Part shown: positions 107 through 29,888 of the stretch, one piece after another | Layout: the number at the start of each line of letters is the position of its first letter | Position numbering within the stretch: the first letter of the stretch is position 1 | Virus record (IMG/VR): IMGVR_UViG_3300001533_001112 | Coordinates: 1-30,398 of that record | From: a virus | Length of the DNA: 30,398 nucleotides | Strand: one strand, 5' to 3' | Translations under genes and position numbers: made by a program | Notes under the pieces: generated by a model | What the model was told of the DNA's origin: nothing | Databases searched by the model: none | What the model saw: only the letters and a program-made list of their open reading frames with translations

Positions 107-1345
107 ATGTCAGAAAATAAACCAAGAGAAAATGAATTTTTAAAACAAAATCAGGCTTCACAATTTGTAAAGAAAAGTACTGATTTAATGTCAAAAACGA
201 TTGGTGGTGTTTTTAATAACACTGCCAAAGCTTTCAATGAAAATGCAAAATTACAAATAGAAACAAATCAAATATTAAAACGTATTGATTCATCTATTTC
301 ATCTTTAAATACATTATTATCAAAAAATACTCAAGATACTTTAAAATTACAGACAAAAACTTCTCAATTTTTACAAAATGCTTCAGTAAAAAATAAAGGT
401 GCAAGGACGGCTAAAGATTATGTTAGAAGAGAATCTCAAACTAAAATAATGAAAGACAGTTATTCTGATATGATAAAATTACTTAGTGCAATTAAAAAGG
501 GTGGAATGTTAGGATCGCTTGGATCGCTTGGTGGTTTGGGTATTCTTTTTTCTGGTGGTGGTCTTCTTGGATATCTAATGACAGGTAAGACAGAGTTTCT
601 CTTTAGTGTTGTTAAGGGGTTTAAATATATTGGTAAAGGTTTGTCTAGAGCATTTAAAGAAATTAAAACAGTAGGAAAAGTTGTAAAAACAATATCTAAA
701 CTTAATGTTAGTACTACTTTAAAAGCAATTAAAGGTATTCCAAAATTTTTTAAAGGTGTTTTTAGTGTTGCAAAATCTATAAGTACAATATTTTCTAAAG
801 GTGCATTAACTGGATTTGGTAAGGGTTTAGCTAAAGGTATTGGAAAGGGTTCTAAAAACGCATTTAAGAAGATACCAATAATTGGCGGTTTGATTGGTTT
901 ATTTTTTGGTATTCAACGTTTTAAAAAGAAGCAATGGATTGAAGGATTATTAGAAGTTGCATCTGGAGTTGCATCGATAGTTCCGGGTGTTGGAACGGCA
1001 TTGGCTGTTGCTATTGATGGATTTTTATTATTTAAAGATTTTAAAGGTATTGAAACTGGAGAAGGTAGTGCTAATGAAAAATTTGCATCGGGTGCTAAAA
1101 AATTTGGAAAAGCATTTATTAGAAATCTTCCGGGTATTGGAAGTATTATTAGAATGAAAGATGCGTTTACAACATGGAAATCTGGAAAAAAATTAAAAGC
1201 TCTTATAGAAATGGGTGGTGCTTTCGCATCGATTATTCCGGGAGGAGGTTTATTGTTTGACATTGCACCAAAAATTGTTGAAATGGTTTCTGATAGTTCT
1301 ATTATTAAGGGGATTAAAAATAGATTTTGGAAAAGCATTTATTAG
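107..1345 (+). CDS. Tape-measure-like protein, N-terminal part (frame broken by repeats)
   Basis: This ORF encodes 412 residues from the ATG at 107 (MSENKPRENEF); a TTG at 65 is in frame but falls inside the inverted repeat and the end of the upstream ORF. The first ~100 residues are polar and predicted helical/coiled-coil. A Gly-rich hydrophobic stretch (~131-160) and Gly/Ala/Lys-rich amphipathic segments follow, as in phage tape-measure proteins that line the tail tube and enter the membrane. A module of about 50 residues (IPIIGGL... to SIVPGVGTAL) recurs as LPGIGSII... to SIIPGGGLLF. The ORF ends abruptly at 1345, where a duplicated segment begins in another frame. Removing 425 bp of extra repeat joins it in frame to the M15 peptidase at 1549-2607, giving a 691-residue product. 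The tape-measure role rests on composition, the peptidase fusion and the position before baseplate genes, not on a recognised family. Confidence 0.7.
   Translation: MSENKPRENEFLKQNQASQFVKKSTDLMSKTIGGVFNNTAKAFNENAKLQIETNQILKRIDSSISSLNTLLSKNTQDTLKLQTKTSQFLQNASVKNKGARTAKDYVRRESQTKIMKDSYSDMIKLLSAIKKGGMLGSLGSLGGLGILFSGGGLLGYLMTGKTEFLFSVVKGFKYIGKGLSRAFKEIKTVGKVVKTISKLNVSTTLKAIKGIPKFFKGVFSVAKSISTIFSKGALTGFGKGLAKGIGKGSKNAFKKIPIIGGLIGLFFGIQRFKKKQWIEGLLEVASGVASIVPGVGTALAVAIDGFLLFKDFKGIETGEGSANEKFASGAKKFGKAFIRNLPGIGSIIRMKDAFTTWKSGKKLKALIEMGGAFASIIPGGGLLFDIAPKIVEMVSDSSIIKGIKNRFWKSIY
1103..1325 (+). repeat. Tandem repeat copy 1 in tape-measure-like gene (223 bp)
   Basis: Copy 1 runs from TTTGGAAAAGCATT at 1103 through AATCTTCCGGGTATTGG at 1124 to GATTAAAAATAGAT ending at 1325. 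It is read in the frame of the upstream ORF. The unit length is not a multiple of three, so the next copy is shifted by +1. It differs from copies 2 and 3 by a few substitutions, for example TTWKSGKKLKAL against TKWKSGKKLEAL. Confidence 0.9.
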
Positions 1346-1548
1346 AAATCTTCCGGGTATTGGGGGTATTATTAGAATGAAAGATGCGTTTACAAAATGG
1401 AAATCTGGAAAAAAATTAGAAGCTCTTATAGAAATGGGTGGTGCTTTCGCAACGATTATTCCGGGAGGAGGTTTATTGTTTGACATTGCACCAAAAATTG
1501 TTGAAATGGTTTCTGATAGTTCTATTATTAAGGGGATTAAAAATAGAT
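1326..1548 (+). repeat. Tandem repeat copy 2, +1 frame relative to copy 1
   Basis: Copy 2 starts TTTGGAAAAGCATT at 1326 and carries AATCTTCCGGG at 1347, 223 bp after copy 1. Its protein module is intact but only in the frame that ends at TAA 1548-1550. The next AATCTTCCGGG is at 1549, only 202 bp further on, so copy 3 is shifted again by +1 and lacks the first ~21 bp of the unit. No plausible start codon and ribosome-binding site would let this copy be translated on its own. Confidence 0.9.
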
Positions 1549-2607
1549 AATCTTCCGGGTATTGGAAGTATTATTAGAATGAAAGATGCGTTTACAAAAT
1601 GGAAATCTGGAAACAAATTAGAAGCTCTTAAAGAAATGGGTGGTGCTTTCGCAACGATTATTCCGGGAGGAGGTTTATTGTTTGACATTGCACCAAAAAT
1701 TGCTGAAATGGTTTCTGATAGTTCTATTATTAAGGGGATTAAAAATATATTAGGTGGTGCTAAAGATGTTGGCAAAAATATATTAGGTGGTGCTAAAGAT
1801 GTTGGCAAAAATATATTAGGTGGTGGTGGTTTTGATTATGATGTTGGAAGTAAAGTAAAAACTGTTACAGAATGGGGAAAACGTGCATTTGGTAAAGCAA
1901 AAGATGGTATGTTTAACTCTTTAAAAAAACCTAAAGAAATGGATAAAGGATTTAATCCAATTGGATATATTACTAGTGGGGCACGTAAACTTATGGATGT
2001 GGATAAAAGTGTTGGTATTAAATTATATAGTCCTTGGAATCCAAATTATGATGGATTAGACCCATCAATGAAATTAAATTTTGGTAATATGGCAAAAGAA
2101 TATTTTGATACTACTGGTAAAGATATTCAAGTTAATTCAGCTAAAAGAAATAGAGGTGGGAATTCTGTTCATGATTATGGGTTTGCTATTGATATAAATT
2201 CTAGTGATGCAAATAATTTAGAGCGTATGGGATTATTTAAGAAATATGGATTCCATAGACCATTATTAAATTGGAAAAAAATGAAAGAGCCTTGGCATGT
2301 GGAACCATATCCGGGTGAAGGTGTGTATGGACCAAGAGATACAATTAATAATGAATTTCGTAAAAGAGTATTAATGGGGAAAAAAGATAAATATTCAAAA
2401 CCAGAACAGGGCGGTGGAGGTTTTGATATTAATCTACCGCAAGGTTATGTGGATGGTAAATTTGAACCGGATAAACCAATGCAAGTTATTTTATCTAGTG
2501 ATGATATTGAAAAATTGGCAAATGCTTTTGGTAGACAATTAGAGAGAAATAAACCAAAAGATATGCCAAGAGCTAATAATCAGTTAGTGTCTGGAAGAAA
2601 ATTTTAA
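1438..2607 (+). CDS. Tape-measure C-terminal part with M15 (VanY/CwlK-like) peptidase domain
   Basis: This is the downstream part of the broken gene. The open frame begins at 1438, but residues before about 1549 are out-of-frame translation of repeat copy 2, so true homology starts at NLPGIGSIIRMKDAF in copy 3. A zinc peptidase domain of family M15 follows. Its motifs are SVHDYGFAIDIN (His at 2170, Asp at 2191) and KEPWHVE (Glu at 2287, Trp at 2293, His at 2296), matching the SxHxxGxAxD and ExxWH signatures of VanY/CwlK-type enzymes that cleave peptidoglycan peptides. A Gly-rich linker and a C-terminal tail ending LVSGRKF come after it. No good ribosome-binding site precedes any start in this frame, so as assembled the part is expressed only by frameshifting or not at all. 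Most likely it is the 3' half of one gene with 107-1345. Confidence 0.75.
   Translation: MVLSQRLFREEVYCLTLHQKLLKWFLIVLLLRGLKIDNLPGIGSIIRMKDAFTKWKSGNKLEALKEMGGAFATIIPGGGLLFDIAPKIAEMVSDSSIIKGIKNILGGAKDVGKNILGGAKDVGKNILGGGGFDYDVGSKVKTVTEWGKRAFGKAKDGMFNSLKKPKEMDKGFNPIGYITSGARKLMDVDKSVGIKLYSPWNPNYDGLDPSMKLNFGNMAKEYFDTTGKDIQVNSAKRNRGGNSVHDYGFAIDINSSDANNLERMGLFKKYGFHRPLLNWKKMKEPWHVEPYPGEGVYGPRDTINNEFRKRVLMGKKDKYSKPEQGGGGFDINLPQGYVDGKFEPDKPMQVILSSDDIEKLANAFGRQLERNKPKDMPRANNQLVSGRKF
1549..1747 (+). repeat. Tandem repeat copy 3, in frame with the M15 peptidase
   Basis: This third copy begins AATCTTCCGGGTATTGG and ends at GATTAAAAATA (1747), where it continues into the ILGGAKDVGK region instead of TAGAT. 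It lies in the frame that continues to 2607. Copy 3 has its own differences (GNKLEALKEM and APKIAEM instead of GKKLEALIEM and APKIVEM), so the three copies are not exact. Confidence 0.9.
1744..1821 (+). repeat. 33-bp direct repeats encoding NILGGAKDVGK
   Basis: Two exact 33-bp units start at 1744 and 1777 and a partial third starts at 1810. They encode NILGGAKDVGK twice, then NILGGGG. Unlike the larger repeat just upstream, this unit is a multiple of three and keeps the frame. It forms a Gly/Lys-rich linker between the hydrophobic tape-measure module and the peptidase domain. Confidence 0.9.
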
Positions 2608-18980: not shown

Positions 18981-21900
18981 ATGGCTAATTTTTTTGAAGA
19001 TTTTGTTGCATCAACAGGTAATTTTTTCTATGCTGCCCAAGACGGTTATCCATCGTATAGATATTGGTATATTGATTTTGTTAAATTAATACCACAAGAT
19101 GCTGTTGATAATCAACCCGGCTTTATTTTAGTTGATACACAGCCGGAATTAAATGGTAGTTTGTCGGCTTCATTTGTTGGTCTTGATGTTTATAATGGTG
19201 CTGATAATTTCATAATTATGAGATATCAAAGTCCAACACAATTTCTTGGATTGCGTGTTAATCCGGGAACTCTTGACCAAAAAGGAATTTATCTTTCTGT
19301 CAATAATACAAATGAGTGGCAGGGTGAGGACTCTGCACTTTCAGAAGGAGACATAAAACTTAATCTTATAAACTCAGCGGGTATTGCGATAAGTGCTGAA
19401 ACTTGGCCCAATAAAACAGAATTTCCACTTGATGGCTTAATCACTGTAGATATTACCGATGATAATACATTTTCAGTTGAATTGTGGGATTCTGACCATA
19501 CAATATTTTATGCTTCAGCGTCATTTATAAATAATGATTACACATCATCTGCTGGTCATTTTGGATTTTTCCATACTAAAAAATGGGATGCAAATATCGA
19601 AGGTTGGGATTATATAATGTGGGTTGATAGTGCATCTGCTACAATTCCACCAACGATAGATTCATTTAGTGCAACAAAATATACATTATCTGAAGGACAA
19701 TCAACATCATTAGGGTGGTTTGTATCGAGTGGTGATAGTGATACTATAGTTACAATTGACAATGGTGTTGGTGATGTAGATTTGTTTGGAACGTCTGCAA
19801 TTACACCGGGACTTGGAAGTTATACATATATAATATCGGCATATAATGAAGGTGGTGATGTTAGTGCATCACTTGACATAAATGTTATCGTATCAGCCCC
19901 ATTAATTATAACATTTTCTGCTGATAGTCCAATTGATTTTAGTGGTTCTTCTATATTGACATGGGAAACTTCTGGTTCATCAGTTTCAGCATTTATTGAT
20001 AATGATATTGGATGGGTAACACCCGTTAGTGCAGGAACATGTGTAGTTTCTGGTTTGTCAGCATCAACAACATACACATTGTCGGCATTTGATTCAAGTG
20101 CTAATTTTGTTTTTGAGTCTACAACTATTGATATCATTGAACCATTAATTACAATATTTTCTGCTGATACACCAATTTCTGGTGGTGGAAATTCAACATT
20201 AACATGGGAGACATCAGGAGCATCAACATCAGCATTTATTGATAATAATGTTGGATGGGTAACACCTGTTAGTGCGGGAACATATGAAGTTTCTGGGATT
20301 TCAGCTACGACAACATTTACGTTATCAGCATTTGATGATTATAGTAATTTTGTGACGGATAACACTACGGTAACTGTCACACCACCATCTGTGTTGGTTT
20401 TTTCTGGAGATACTCCGATTTCTGCTGGTGATAATACATTATTGACATGGGAGACATCAGGAGCAACATCTGCATTCATTGACAATGGGGTTGGATGGGT
20501 TATTCCAGTAAATTCTGGAACATGTGATGTTTCTGGTTTGTCAATAACAACTACGTATACGTTATCAGCATTTGACGATTATAGTAATTTTGGTACTGAT
20601 AGTACTACAATTATAGTTTCAGCAAATCCACAAATTGTTTCTGGTACATTTTCAGCAACATCAAATCCAACATGTTCTGGTTCTGACTATTTAATTAGTT
20701 GGGTAACAATAGGAGCAACATCAGCATTTATTAATAATGGTATTGGATGGATAGATTCTTCTGCTGTAAGTTCTGGTTCATATGGAACATCATCAACACT
20801 TCCTGTATCATATACAATGTCTGCATGGAATGATTTTGGTGTTTTAACAAGTGCATCATATATTCAAAAAATTTATTATAGAGACCCTATAGCAGATGCA
20901 GGAAGTGATTTAGAATTAACAGCAACAAGTATTAGTGGAGTATCTGCTACATTTAATGCCAGCGCAAGTTATGACCCTGATGGTCAAGCAATATCAACAT
21001 ATCAATGGACATCTGGTAGTGATGTTGTGTCAACTTCTGAATATTTTACTTTAGTATTATCTGCTGGAGACCACGAATTTGATTTACTTATTACAGATGG
21101 ATGTGGCCAGTCTGGAACGGATAGTGTTAGTGCTTCTGTAATTAATTTAATTCCTCCGATTCCTATTGCCAGCGCAAATTCATATATTGTAAATGCTGGA
21201 GATAATTTTATATTATCTGGTCAAGATAGTTATGACCCTGACGGTTCTATAACAAATTATTTATGGGAATTGAGCGGTACTTTTGTTTCGGCTACAGATG
21301 TTGCTATTCAATCAAAAAATGCTGTAGGGGAATACACATACACATTAACGGTTACTGATTCAAGTGGATTATCTGCATCAGATACTGTAACAGTTAATGT
21401 TAATGTTAATGGTGTATATGCACCAAGTGCAAATGCGGGTTCAGACCAAACACATTGTATGACTTCTGGTGACACACTAGATATATTACTTGCTGGTACT
21501 GATAGTTTACCTCCAAGTACTGGTAGTTCTTTATCATGGTATCAATGGAATTTAAGTGCTTTTGGTGTATCAAATGTATCTGCCAATATAGCAACGGATG
21601 CATCAGAAATATTTACTATAGTTAGTGATGTTTCTGCTTTTGGAACATATAATGTTGAATTAAAAGTATCTGCATCTAATGGGATTATTGATACCGATAC
21701 GGTAAGTGTTACTATTAATCGTCAAGCATTAGTATCTGCTGGAGATGACCAAACGCACACATTATCATGTGATTCATCTTTTTATGATGTTTGGTTAAGT
21801 GGTAGTTCTGATTTGTCTGGAACATATATTTGGTATTTTAATAATGGAACATTTAAAAAGCAAGGTCAGATTGTATCAGCATCATGTGGTGTAGGAACAT

Positions 21901-23501
21901 TTAGTGCTGGTTTGGAAATGGTCACAACAGCAGATGATGGTACAACATGTACATCAGATATTGATTCTATTAATATTGTAATAAGTGCTAGTTCATTATC
22001 GATTGATACTTTTGAATTTAATCCAAGTTTTATAAATGGCACATCGGCTTATGCATGGTCAACATTAACATGGGGAATAACATCTGCTGTTAGTGCAACT
22101 ATTGATAATAGTGTTGGTTGGTTAGATATATCGGCAATATCATCAGGAACACGTCAAGTTTCTGGAACTGATGATTTAACATATAATATTTCGGCATTTG
22201 ATATTAGTGGATGTATGGTAACATCACAAGCAATTGCTACAATTAATTTGGGAACCATTTCTGCATGTAAATTGAAAGTAAATTATATTTCTTTATTTGG
22301 TCCTGAACATATAAGATGGGGAGATTGTAGAGATATTAATTTAGTTGATATGCTTCCAGAGACTTTATTTAATACAGATACAGAGGATTATCTTAAAGTA
22401 TATCAAGATTATTTGAATGAAATGTATGCTGGCTCTTGTGGATATACTCTTGGAGCATCTGCATTAAATACTTGTGCTTGTGAAGTTTCTGCGTGTTTAT
22501 TATCTGCTGTTAATAATTTTTATGAACATCAAACATATTTAAGTGGTGGTATATCTGCTAATACTTTATATACACCAACAGATGATGTAGAAAAGGTTTT
22601 TCTTACTGATTTTTGTCAAGTTCCAAAAACTAAAATATCTGTTCTTGAGAAGATATATAGAATAACAGAATTGTTTGACTCAGATTTAATTCCAATTGAA
22701 TTGATACAATTTTATGCACAAAACCTTGGTTATGAAGTTGGATTGAGTCGTGATAATATTGGATTAGATTTTTCTGCAACGCAAATAGAATCTCAGGAAG
22801 CAATAAATCAAAAGAAATATTTACGATTTATGGTTAGAAATTTACCAACATGGTACAAAATTAAAACAACGAGAAATTCAGTTAAGATGATGTTATATTC
22901 ATTTGGTTTAGTTGGTGATTTTATTTATTATTTTACAAGAAATTATAGAGACCCGGAAACTGGAATAGGATTAAATAGCTTAGAATATGGCGGTCAAAAT
23001 GTAAATGATTATGGAACAACTGAAACTTCTGGTTTTAATAAATATATTGTTACTGATGATATGACATATAAAGAATTACAAGAATTGAAATGTAATTTAT
23101 CACAATGGGAAGAATTTAAAAATAATAAGAAAGCATATTTTAATATGTTAAATGAATTACAACCATTAGGAAATAATGATTGGATATTAACAGATGTTAA
23201 TCCAGCATCAGTAAAAGAAGATATATCAAATATACCTGATGATTTTTTCTCATCACCTCATTTTAGATTGTGGTTTGATATATTAGAAAGTTTGACAACT
23301 GGAAATTTTACAACTGATTTGAGAAGACAAAAATTAATATCTGAAGCAATAAAAGCAATTAAACCAATCAATACAGTATTTGAAGGTATTACAGGAGTAT
23401 ATAGAACTGTAGTAGATTTATACTATCGACCATATTCAAGAATTAGAAAACATATATCTTTGTTTTCTGATGGATATGCTGATTGGTATTTTAACAGATG
23501 A
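18981..23501 (+). CDS. Giant Ig/PKD-array protein with tail-protein-I (gp7/TssG)-like C-terminus
   Basis: The largest gene, 1506 residues. Residues ~1-222 look like a jelly-roll domain (FFEDFVASTGNFFY... AGHFGFFHT). Six Ig-like units of ~80 residues follow, five at 19654-20870 and one at 21991-22250, with the core LTWETSGATSAFIDNGVGW then TTTYTLSAFDDYSNF. Four PKD-like units lie at 20881-21990, two with the typical SYDPDG and a later YQW or LW. The last ~415 residues are different: helical, with LEKIYRITELFDSDLIPIEL, LRFMVRNLPTWYKIKTTRNS and VKMMLYSFGLVGD, resembling P2 gpI/TssG/gp7 wedge proteins. It may be a wedge component carrying a long adhesive arm. The C-terminal assignment is by pattern only. 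Confidence 0.75.
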   Translation: MANFFEDFVASTGNFFYAAQDGYPSYRYWYIDFVKLIPQDAVDNQPGFILVDTQPELNGSLSASFVGLDVYNGADNFIIMRYQSPTQFLGLRVNPGTLDQKGIYLSVNNTNEWQGEDSALSEGDIKLNLINSAGIAISAETWPNKTEFPLDGLITVDITDDNTFSVELWDSDHTIFYASASFINNDYTSSAGHFGFFHTKKWDANIEGWDYIMWVDSASATIPPTIDSFSATKYTLSEGQSTSLGWFVSSGDSDTIVTIDNGVGDVDLFGTSAITPGLGSYTYIISAYNEGGDVSASLDINVIVSAPLIITFSADSPIDFSGSSILTWETSGSSVSAFIDNDIGWVTPVSAGTCVVSGLSASTTYTLSAFDSSANFVFESTTIDIIEPLITIFSADTPISGGGNSTLTWETSGASTSAFIDNNVGWVTPVSAGTYEVSGISATTTFTLSAFDDYSNFVTDNTTVTVTPPSVLVFSGDTPISAGDNTLLTWETSGATSAFIDNGVGWVIPVNSGTCDVSGLSITTTYTLSAFDDYSNFGTDSTTIIVSANPQIVSGTFSATSNPTCSGSDYLISWVTIGATSAFINNGIGWIDSSAVSSGSYGTSSTLPVSYTMSAWNDFGVLTSASYIQKIYYRDPIADAGSDLELTATSISGVSATFNASASYDPDGQAISTYQWTSGSDVVSTSEYFTLVLSAGDHEFDLLITDGCGQSGTDSVSASVINLIPPIPIASANSYIVNAGDNFILSGQDSYDPDGSITNYLWELSGTFVSATDVAIQSKNAVGEYTYTLTVTDSSGLSASDTVTVNVNVNGVYAPSANAGSDQTHCMTSGDTLDILLAGTDSLPPSTGSSLSWYQWNLSAFGVSNVSANIATDASEIFTIVSDVSAFGTYNVELKVSASNGIIDTDTVSVTINRQALVSAGDDQTHTLSCDSSFYDVWLSGSSDLSGTYIWYFNNGTFKKQGQIVSASCGVGTFSAGLEMVTTADDGTTCTSDIDSINIVISASSLSIDTFEFNPSFINGTSAYAWSTLTWGITSAVSATIDNSVGWLDISAISSGTRQVSGTDDLTYNISAFDISGCMVTSQAIATINLGTISACKLKVNYISLFGPEHIRWGDCRDINLVDMLPETLFNTDTEDYLKVYQDYLNEMYAGSCGYTLGASALNTCACEVSACLLSAVNNFYEHQTYLSGGISANTLYTPTDDVEKVFLTDFCQVPKTKISVLEKIYRITELFDSDLIPIELIQFYAQNLGYEVGLSRDNIGLDFSATQIESQEAINQKKYLRFMVRNLPTWYKIKTTRNSVKMMLYSFGLVGDFIYYFTRNYRDPETGIGLNSLEYGGQNVNDYGTTETSGFNKYIVTDDMTYKELQELKCNLSQWEEFKNNKKAYFNMLNELQPLGNNDWILTDVNPASVKEDISNIPDDFFSSPHFRLWFDILESLTTGNFTTDLRRQKLISEAIKAIKPINTVFEGITGVYRTVVDLYYRPYSRIRKHISLFSDGYADWYFNR
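19903..20630 (+). repeat. Three tandem Ig-domain repeats, similar at DNA level
   Basis: Units near 19903, 20146 and 20392, each about 245 bp, share blocks such as TTGGATGGGTAACACC and ACGTTATCAGCATTTGA. They are in frame and encode three Ig-like modules. The conserved DNA suggests recent duplication and a site prone to unit gain or loss. More diverged units flank them. Confidence 0.8.

Positions 23502-28652: not shown

Positions 28653-29888
<1,236 letters not shown>

Follow-up and report, generated by a model that had tools for sequence, protein, structure and literature searches.

Triplication of a protein module in three reading frames within a putative tape-measure-slot peptidase gene of a T4-like phage

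The tail gene at the start of the window, by which we mean the whole 30,398-nt virus record analysed here, contains three near-identical tandem copies of a protein module, each open in a different reading frame. This anomaly, correctly recorded in a preliminary description of the DNA, is most likely a real or partly real amplification of the module that broke the gene; of the three origins proposed there, a genuinely broken gene is the most likely and an assembly fault is a serious rival. The parts of the gene are as follows.

107-1345, + strand: N-terminal ORF, 412 aa from the ATG at 107, with the conserved N-terminus, a degenerate first module and the whole of copy 1
866-1042, + strand: older and diverged module related to the triplicated one (KKIPIIGG...ALAVAIDGFLLFKDF), glycine-rich and hydrophobic, shared by cyanophage proteins
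1103-1325, + strand: copy 1 of the 223-nt unit (repeat finding, copy alignment)
1215-1550, + strand: middle-frame ORF with the copy 2 module, 111 aa from a GTG
1313-1330, + strand: seam 1, ATTAAAAATAGAT joined to TTTGG
1326-1548, + strand: copy 2, in the +1 frame relative to copy 1 (repeat finding, copy alignment)
1438-2607, + strand: third-frame ORF with copy 3, a linker, the M15-like peptidase and the conserved C-terminus
1536-1553, + strand: seam 2, the left edge ATTAAAAATAGAT joined to AATCT
1549-1747, + strand: copy 3, without the 21 nt that begin the unit, shifted +1 from copy 2 and in the peptidase frame
1665-1680, + strand: GGGAGGAGG followed by TTTA and TTG, the strongest Shine-Dalgarno sequence of the window before an in-frame start
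1741-1825, + strand: exact in-frame tandem array of a 33-nt unit, 2.6 copies, directly after copy 3 (TRF)
2056-2307, + strand: M15-like metallopeptidase region with SxHxxGxAxD and EPWHxE motifs, its Pfam match below the cut-off

Repeat finding and TRF place the starts of the three copies exactly 223 and 202 nt apart, and each copy is open in its own frame with stops in the other two, in full agreement with the offsets and the three frames first reported. Copies 1 and 2 share 98% identity across 223 nt. The segment of ~220 bp reported for all three copies holds as a repeat, but the third copy, which corresponds to positions 22-223 of the unit, is shorter by 21 nt (223-202), exactly 7 codons. 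A repeat of ~200 nt at 97-98% identity is far beyond chance. As 223 nt are 74 codons plus 1 nt and 202 nt are 67 codons plus 1 nt, the module is open in three successive frames, and removal of the extra 425 nt gives, by simple arithmetic ((2501-425)/3, minus the stop), the joined protein of 691 residues that had been proposed. The left edge ATTAAAAATAGAT is common to both seams and occurs nowhere else in the window, and AAA AAT AGA precedes both seams, with a stop as the next zero-frame codon at seam 2. The longest exact repeat is 96 nt, so that no k-mer is repeated at k >= 97 and every k-mer size from there upward resolves the array.

The shared left edge and the 21-nt difference between the spacings suggest that a single out-of-frame event, subsequently copied, accounts for both frame changes. 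We consider that a real tandem amplification in a duplication hot spot, with the frame broken and the full-length protein lost, has about an even chance of being the correct explanation; that the triplicated array is real DNA, whatever its consequence, is somewhat more probable than that. In a hot-spot linker, a unit exceeding an integral number of codons by one nucleotide would have been duplicated and then re-amplified, and 21 nt would probably have been lost later from copy 3, leaving three modules in three frames. On the simplest account, the second seam would derive from the first by copying and loss of 21 nt. The N-terminal ORF terminates at 1345, 20 nt inside copy 2, and translation from 107 halts there, so that the gene as assembled can yield no full-length protein. 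The peptidase part stays open, and the strong internal ribosome site at 1665-1680 might allow its separate synthesis. The events may have followed this order, and a separate peptidase product may exist.

Judged by gene order, the gene of this T4-like tailed phage appears to occupy the slot that gp29 (tape-measure/hub) has in T4. In L007, a contig of a related phage, the genes for the sheath, tube, a tube-like protein and a gp26-like hub are followed by the tail gene studied here, a cap-like gene and the baseplate genes, an order that we take, from that of T4, to mark the gp29 slot. In L007 the tail gene is thus preceded by the hub gene and followed directly by the gene for a gp48/54-like tube cap, and the order in Vibrio phage Va1 (hub catalyst, peptidase, gp48) matches. 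The contention that a tape-measure-like gene is broken is supported in that relatives carry one ORF in this slot. A search of tape-measure families returned only phrog_16823, a weak match (E = 0.0046) that falls in the peptidase part. The C-terminal part gives good matches to phage proteins whose annotation is peptidase or endolysin; it contains SVHDYGFAID and EPWHVE, which correspond to the M15 zinc-site patterns SxHxxGxAxD and ExxH, and the core residues are invariant across relatives. As the score against the Pfam profile PF13539 is below the cut-off (E = 0.0098, 16.9 bits versus 25), the peptidase is designated M15-like only. Structure prediction for the peptidase part gave a mean pLDDT of 41 without a useful fold match, and no relative of solved structure was found by sequence.

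At the same position, between hub and gp48, an M15-like 'putative peptidase/endolysin' gene is present in Vibrio phage Va1 and in Campylobacter phages (NCTC12673 and others), its M15-like region ~38-43% identical to that of the window. In most of these phages the gene is an intact single ORF, and the repeat arrays of the Campylobacter members are in frame and follow the peptidase region, in these respects different from the window. Cyanophage T4-GC_1041/726 proteins (Synechococcus phages ACG-2014h and Sf-CH1b) carry the glycine-rich hydrophobic module, at ~49-52% identity over 80-90 aa, and share with the window gene a slot after gp26, but they are larger and are organised in one or two genes.

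Relatives were recovered through the baseplate wedge protein (57-81% identity) and through the tail gene itself, whose N-terminal ORF is 43-53% identical to L004, L006 and L007. The gene is a single ORF with one module copy in L007 (683 aa) and in L006/L010 (721 aa), a single ORF with no recognisable module copy in L013 and L014, and one intact, 5′-truncated ORF, again with no recognisable copy, in L008; L004, in which several genes are damaged by indels, is without the triplicated module. A triplication at the same locus in related phages had been put forward as evidence of a real function; the locus is a single ORF in L006/L010, L007, L008 and L013/L014, and none of these relatives, nor L004, has the triplication. 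Searches by protein pattern and by exact DNA found no close relative of the tail gene, and a search of bacterial and archaeal genomes found no relative. Five contigs were matched by 20-mers from the seams, by chance, none of the five encoding a relative.

Tandem arrays are frequent in this gene in other phages. The homologous gene has an 87-nt in-frame array in L008, arrays of 42, 30 and 24 nt in L004 and arrays of 45 or 90 nt in Campylobacter phages. A 39-nt unit is present in 2.2 copies in L013 (6323-6408) and 3.2 copies in L014 (6323-6447), contigs from two metagenomes that are 99.9% identical apart from this one repeat copy, a difference that points to a natural in-frame copy-number polymorphism in the tail gene. 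The units of the arrays elsewhere (33, 87, 39, 42, 30, 24, 27, 45 and 90 nt) are all multiples of three, and the frame is therefore under selection as a rule and the state of the window gene anomalous; its 223/202-nt array is the only one out of frame among those compared. The linker part of the gp29-slot peptidase gene is thus, to judge from these arrays, a hot spot of tandem duplication, and this, with in-frame change of copy number between samples, is the firmer result. Tandem duplication within a tape-measure-slot gene is likewise a feature of the phage tape-measure genes lambda H and TP901-1 TMP, in which repeats are thought to ease duplication and loss (PMC5099701, PMC1796659) and in-frame changes alter tail length (PMC5099701). 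The known viable cases in lambda H and TP901-1 TMP keep the frame and change tail length, however, whereas the window gene loses the frame twice.

There is a substantial chance, though below even, that the array arose in assembly or library preparation, from co-occurring variants, strung together, of a gene that evolves fast and bears repeats, or from chimeric molecules, each genome having one copy or an in-frame number. Consistent with this, no relative shows the array, one sample holds several related phages, and the gene seems to be poorly assembled, with contigs ending in or beside it in the window and, inside the homologous gene, in L008 (1-1935) and L026 (4001-4633). Nucleotides 1-96 of the window match L004 at 20576-20672 (85%), ~17 kb from the homologous gene, and the true upstream flank is matched only from 97 onward; the first 96 nt may be a wrongly joined tip of the contig or an intergenic element that has moved. 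Against this account, a single-copy gene lacks the seam sequences, which a k-mer assembler could obtain only from molecules carrying them, exact repeats never exceed 96 nt, and the remaining long ORFs of the window look intact. The same observations speak directly for real DNA. Collapse of population variants, one of the origins first suggested, is weakened in its simple form, as the seams must have come from reads or from chimeric molecules. General indel noise was also rejected on the strength of the intact long ORFs, in contrast to L004 with its several broken genes. The case against real DNA lies in the lack of a second record with the array, in the contig tip beside the gene that may be mis-joined, and in the 2-3% divergence of the copies, which implies an old duplication, difficult to reconcile with breakage of a gene that is probably essential unless the phage tolerates it. 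If real, the array is a tail gene caught in the midst of amplification, as a dead-end mutant or as a tolerated split of the tail ruler from the cell-wall enzyme; if an artefact, it warns that a tail gene prone to repeats may appear broken in a metagenome contig.

Alignment of the three copies revealed eight internal positions at which they differ, as the scattered substitutions already noted. Copy 2 alone deviates at unit offset 38/39. It agrees with copy 3 at offsets 70, 93 and 126, where copy 1 alone deviates, and with copy 1 at 86, 103 and 175, where copy 3 alone deviates, a mosaic that could reflect a mixture of variants in an artefactual assembly. Seven of the changes are nonsynonymous and one is synonymous. 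With ~24% synonymous changes expected under neutrality, this ratio has P = 0.36, and P falls to between 0.0002 and 0.024 when omega is set at 0.1 to 0.3, as under strong purifying selection. It is therefore unremarkable for a copy under little constraint, and weakly suggests that strong purifying selection is less likely; the claim that the differences are not simple copy errors does not follow, as the seven amino-acid changes in eight fit little constraint. The 7:1 ratio also argues against an artefact but, as omega for the whole gene against L007 is itself ~0.4, it is weak evidence. When L007 was used to identify the ancestral copy, copy 3 was favoured at offsets 86 and 103 and copy 1 at 126, and these conflicting states do not settle the order of the copies. 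A diversity-generating retroelement was rejected by reasoning, as the copies are in tandem and one differing site (T/C) is without an A.

If the array is real, the break could have been tolerated as a gene fission, an unlikely sub-case, in which the N-terminal tail part is one product and the peptidase another, the latter initiated at TTG 1678 behind GGGAGGAGG. The start in copy 3 predicts a 309-aa peptidase, and the peptidase ORF and its motifs are intact. Anti-Shine-Dalgarno pairing of the site, at -12.8 kcal/mol, is the strongest of the 2048 NTG codons in the window, the best annotated gene reaching -9.2. The element of GGGAGGAGG, TTTA and TTG is also present at 1240-1255 in copy 1 and 1463-1478 in copy 2. 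The argument from this site is, however, post hoc, and GGGAGGAGG merely encodes Pro-Gly-Gly-Gly; the motif is absent from the corresponding place in L007 and L006, and the candidate start is TTG, while ATG or GTG opens each gene whose start was examined. Phage lysin genes with internal starts are documented, and the window gene would resemble the two-product lysin LysIME-EF1 if a strong internal site yields a C-terminal product, except that LysIME-EF1 has a full-length product as well and an internal start proven by experiment (PMC7098653). Loss of the hydrolase motif from a tape-measure protein is compatible with viability, as in a mutant of phage TM4 (PMC1796659). In Campylobacter phage F348 the annotation divides the homologous gene in two, but this split amounts to one base in an A run and might be a sequencing error. 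F348 is an isolated phage, and its peptidase gene is split at L035 1360-1370 by the one-base difference in the A run from F367. That the out-of-frame amplification split the tape-measure-slot protein from the peptidase, whose expression would then pass to the strong ribosome site within the amplified module, with copy number switching between fused and split forms, is very doubtful.

Expression by switching of frames, also proposed at the outset, is more improbable still. Programmed +1 frameshifting at both seams would give one long protein with three modules, and the identical +1 shift after an identical AAA AAT AGA at each seam, followed at seam 2 by a stop, is what would be expected of it; frameshifting is also common in phage tail chaperone genes (PMC5009743). 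No slippery run or shift-prone codon was found at the seams, however. Of the 247 Arg codons in the window 194 are AGA, which makes it the commonest, so the codon before the seams is not starved. By established pairing rules an Arg tRNA re-pairs poorly with GAU, as frameshifting here would demand. The shared seam context follows from shared descent, two efficient shifts would be needed in series, and no relative, all having the gene in a single frame, needs any. Real amplification in the hot spot, with loss of the full-length protein, remains the preferred reading.

Repeats are present in two other genes of the window. Near-tandem arrays of 243 and 240 nt, 79% alike, lie at 19899-20592 within a 1506-aa protein (18981-23501) that has PKD/Ig-like domain family matches farther along, and a perfect run of 12.7 GAT units at 29685-29722 encodes poly-Asp in an acidic protein.
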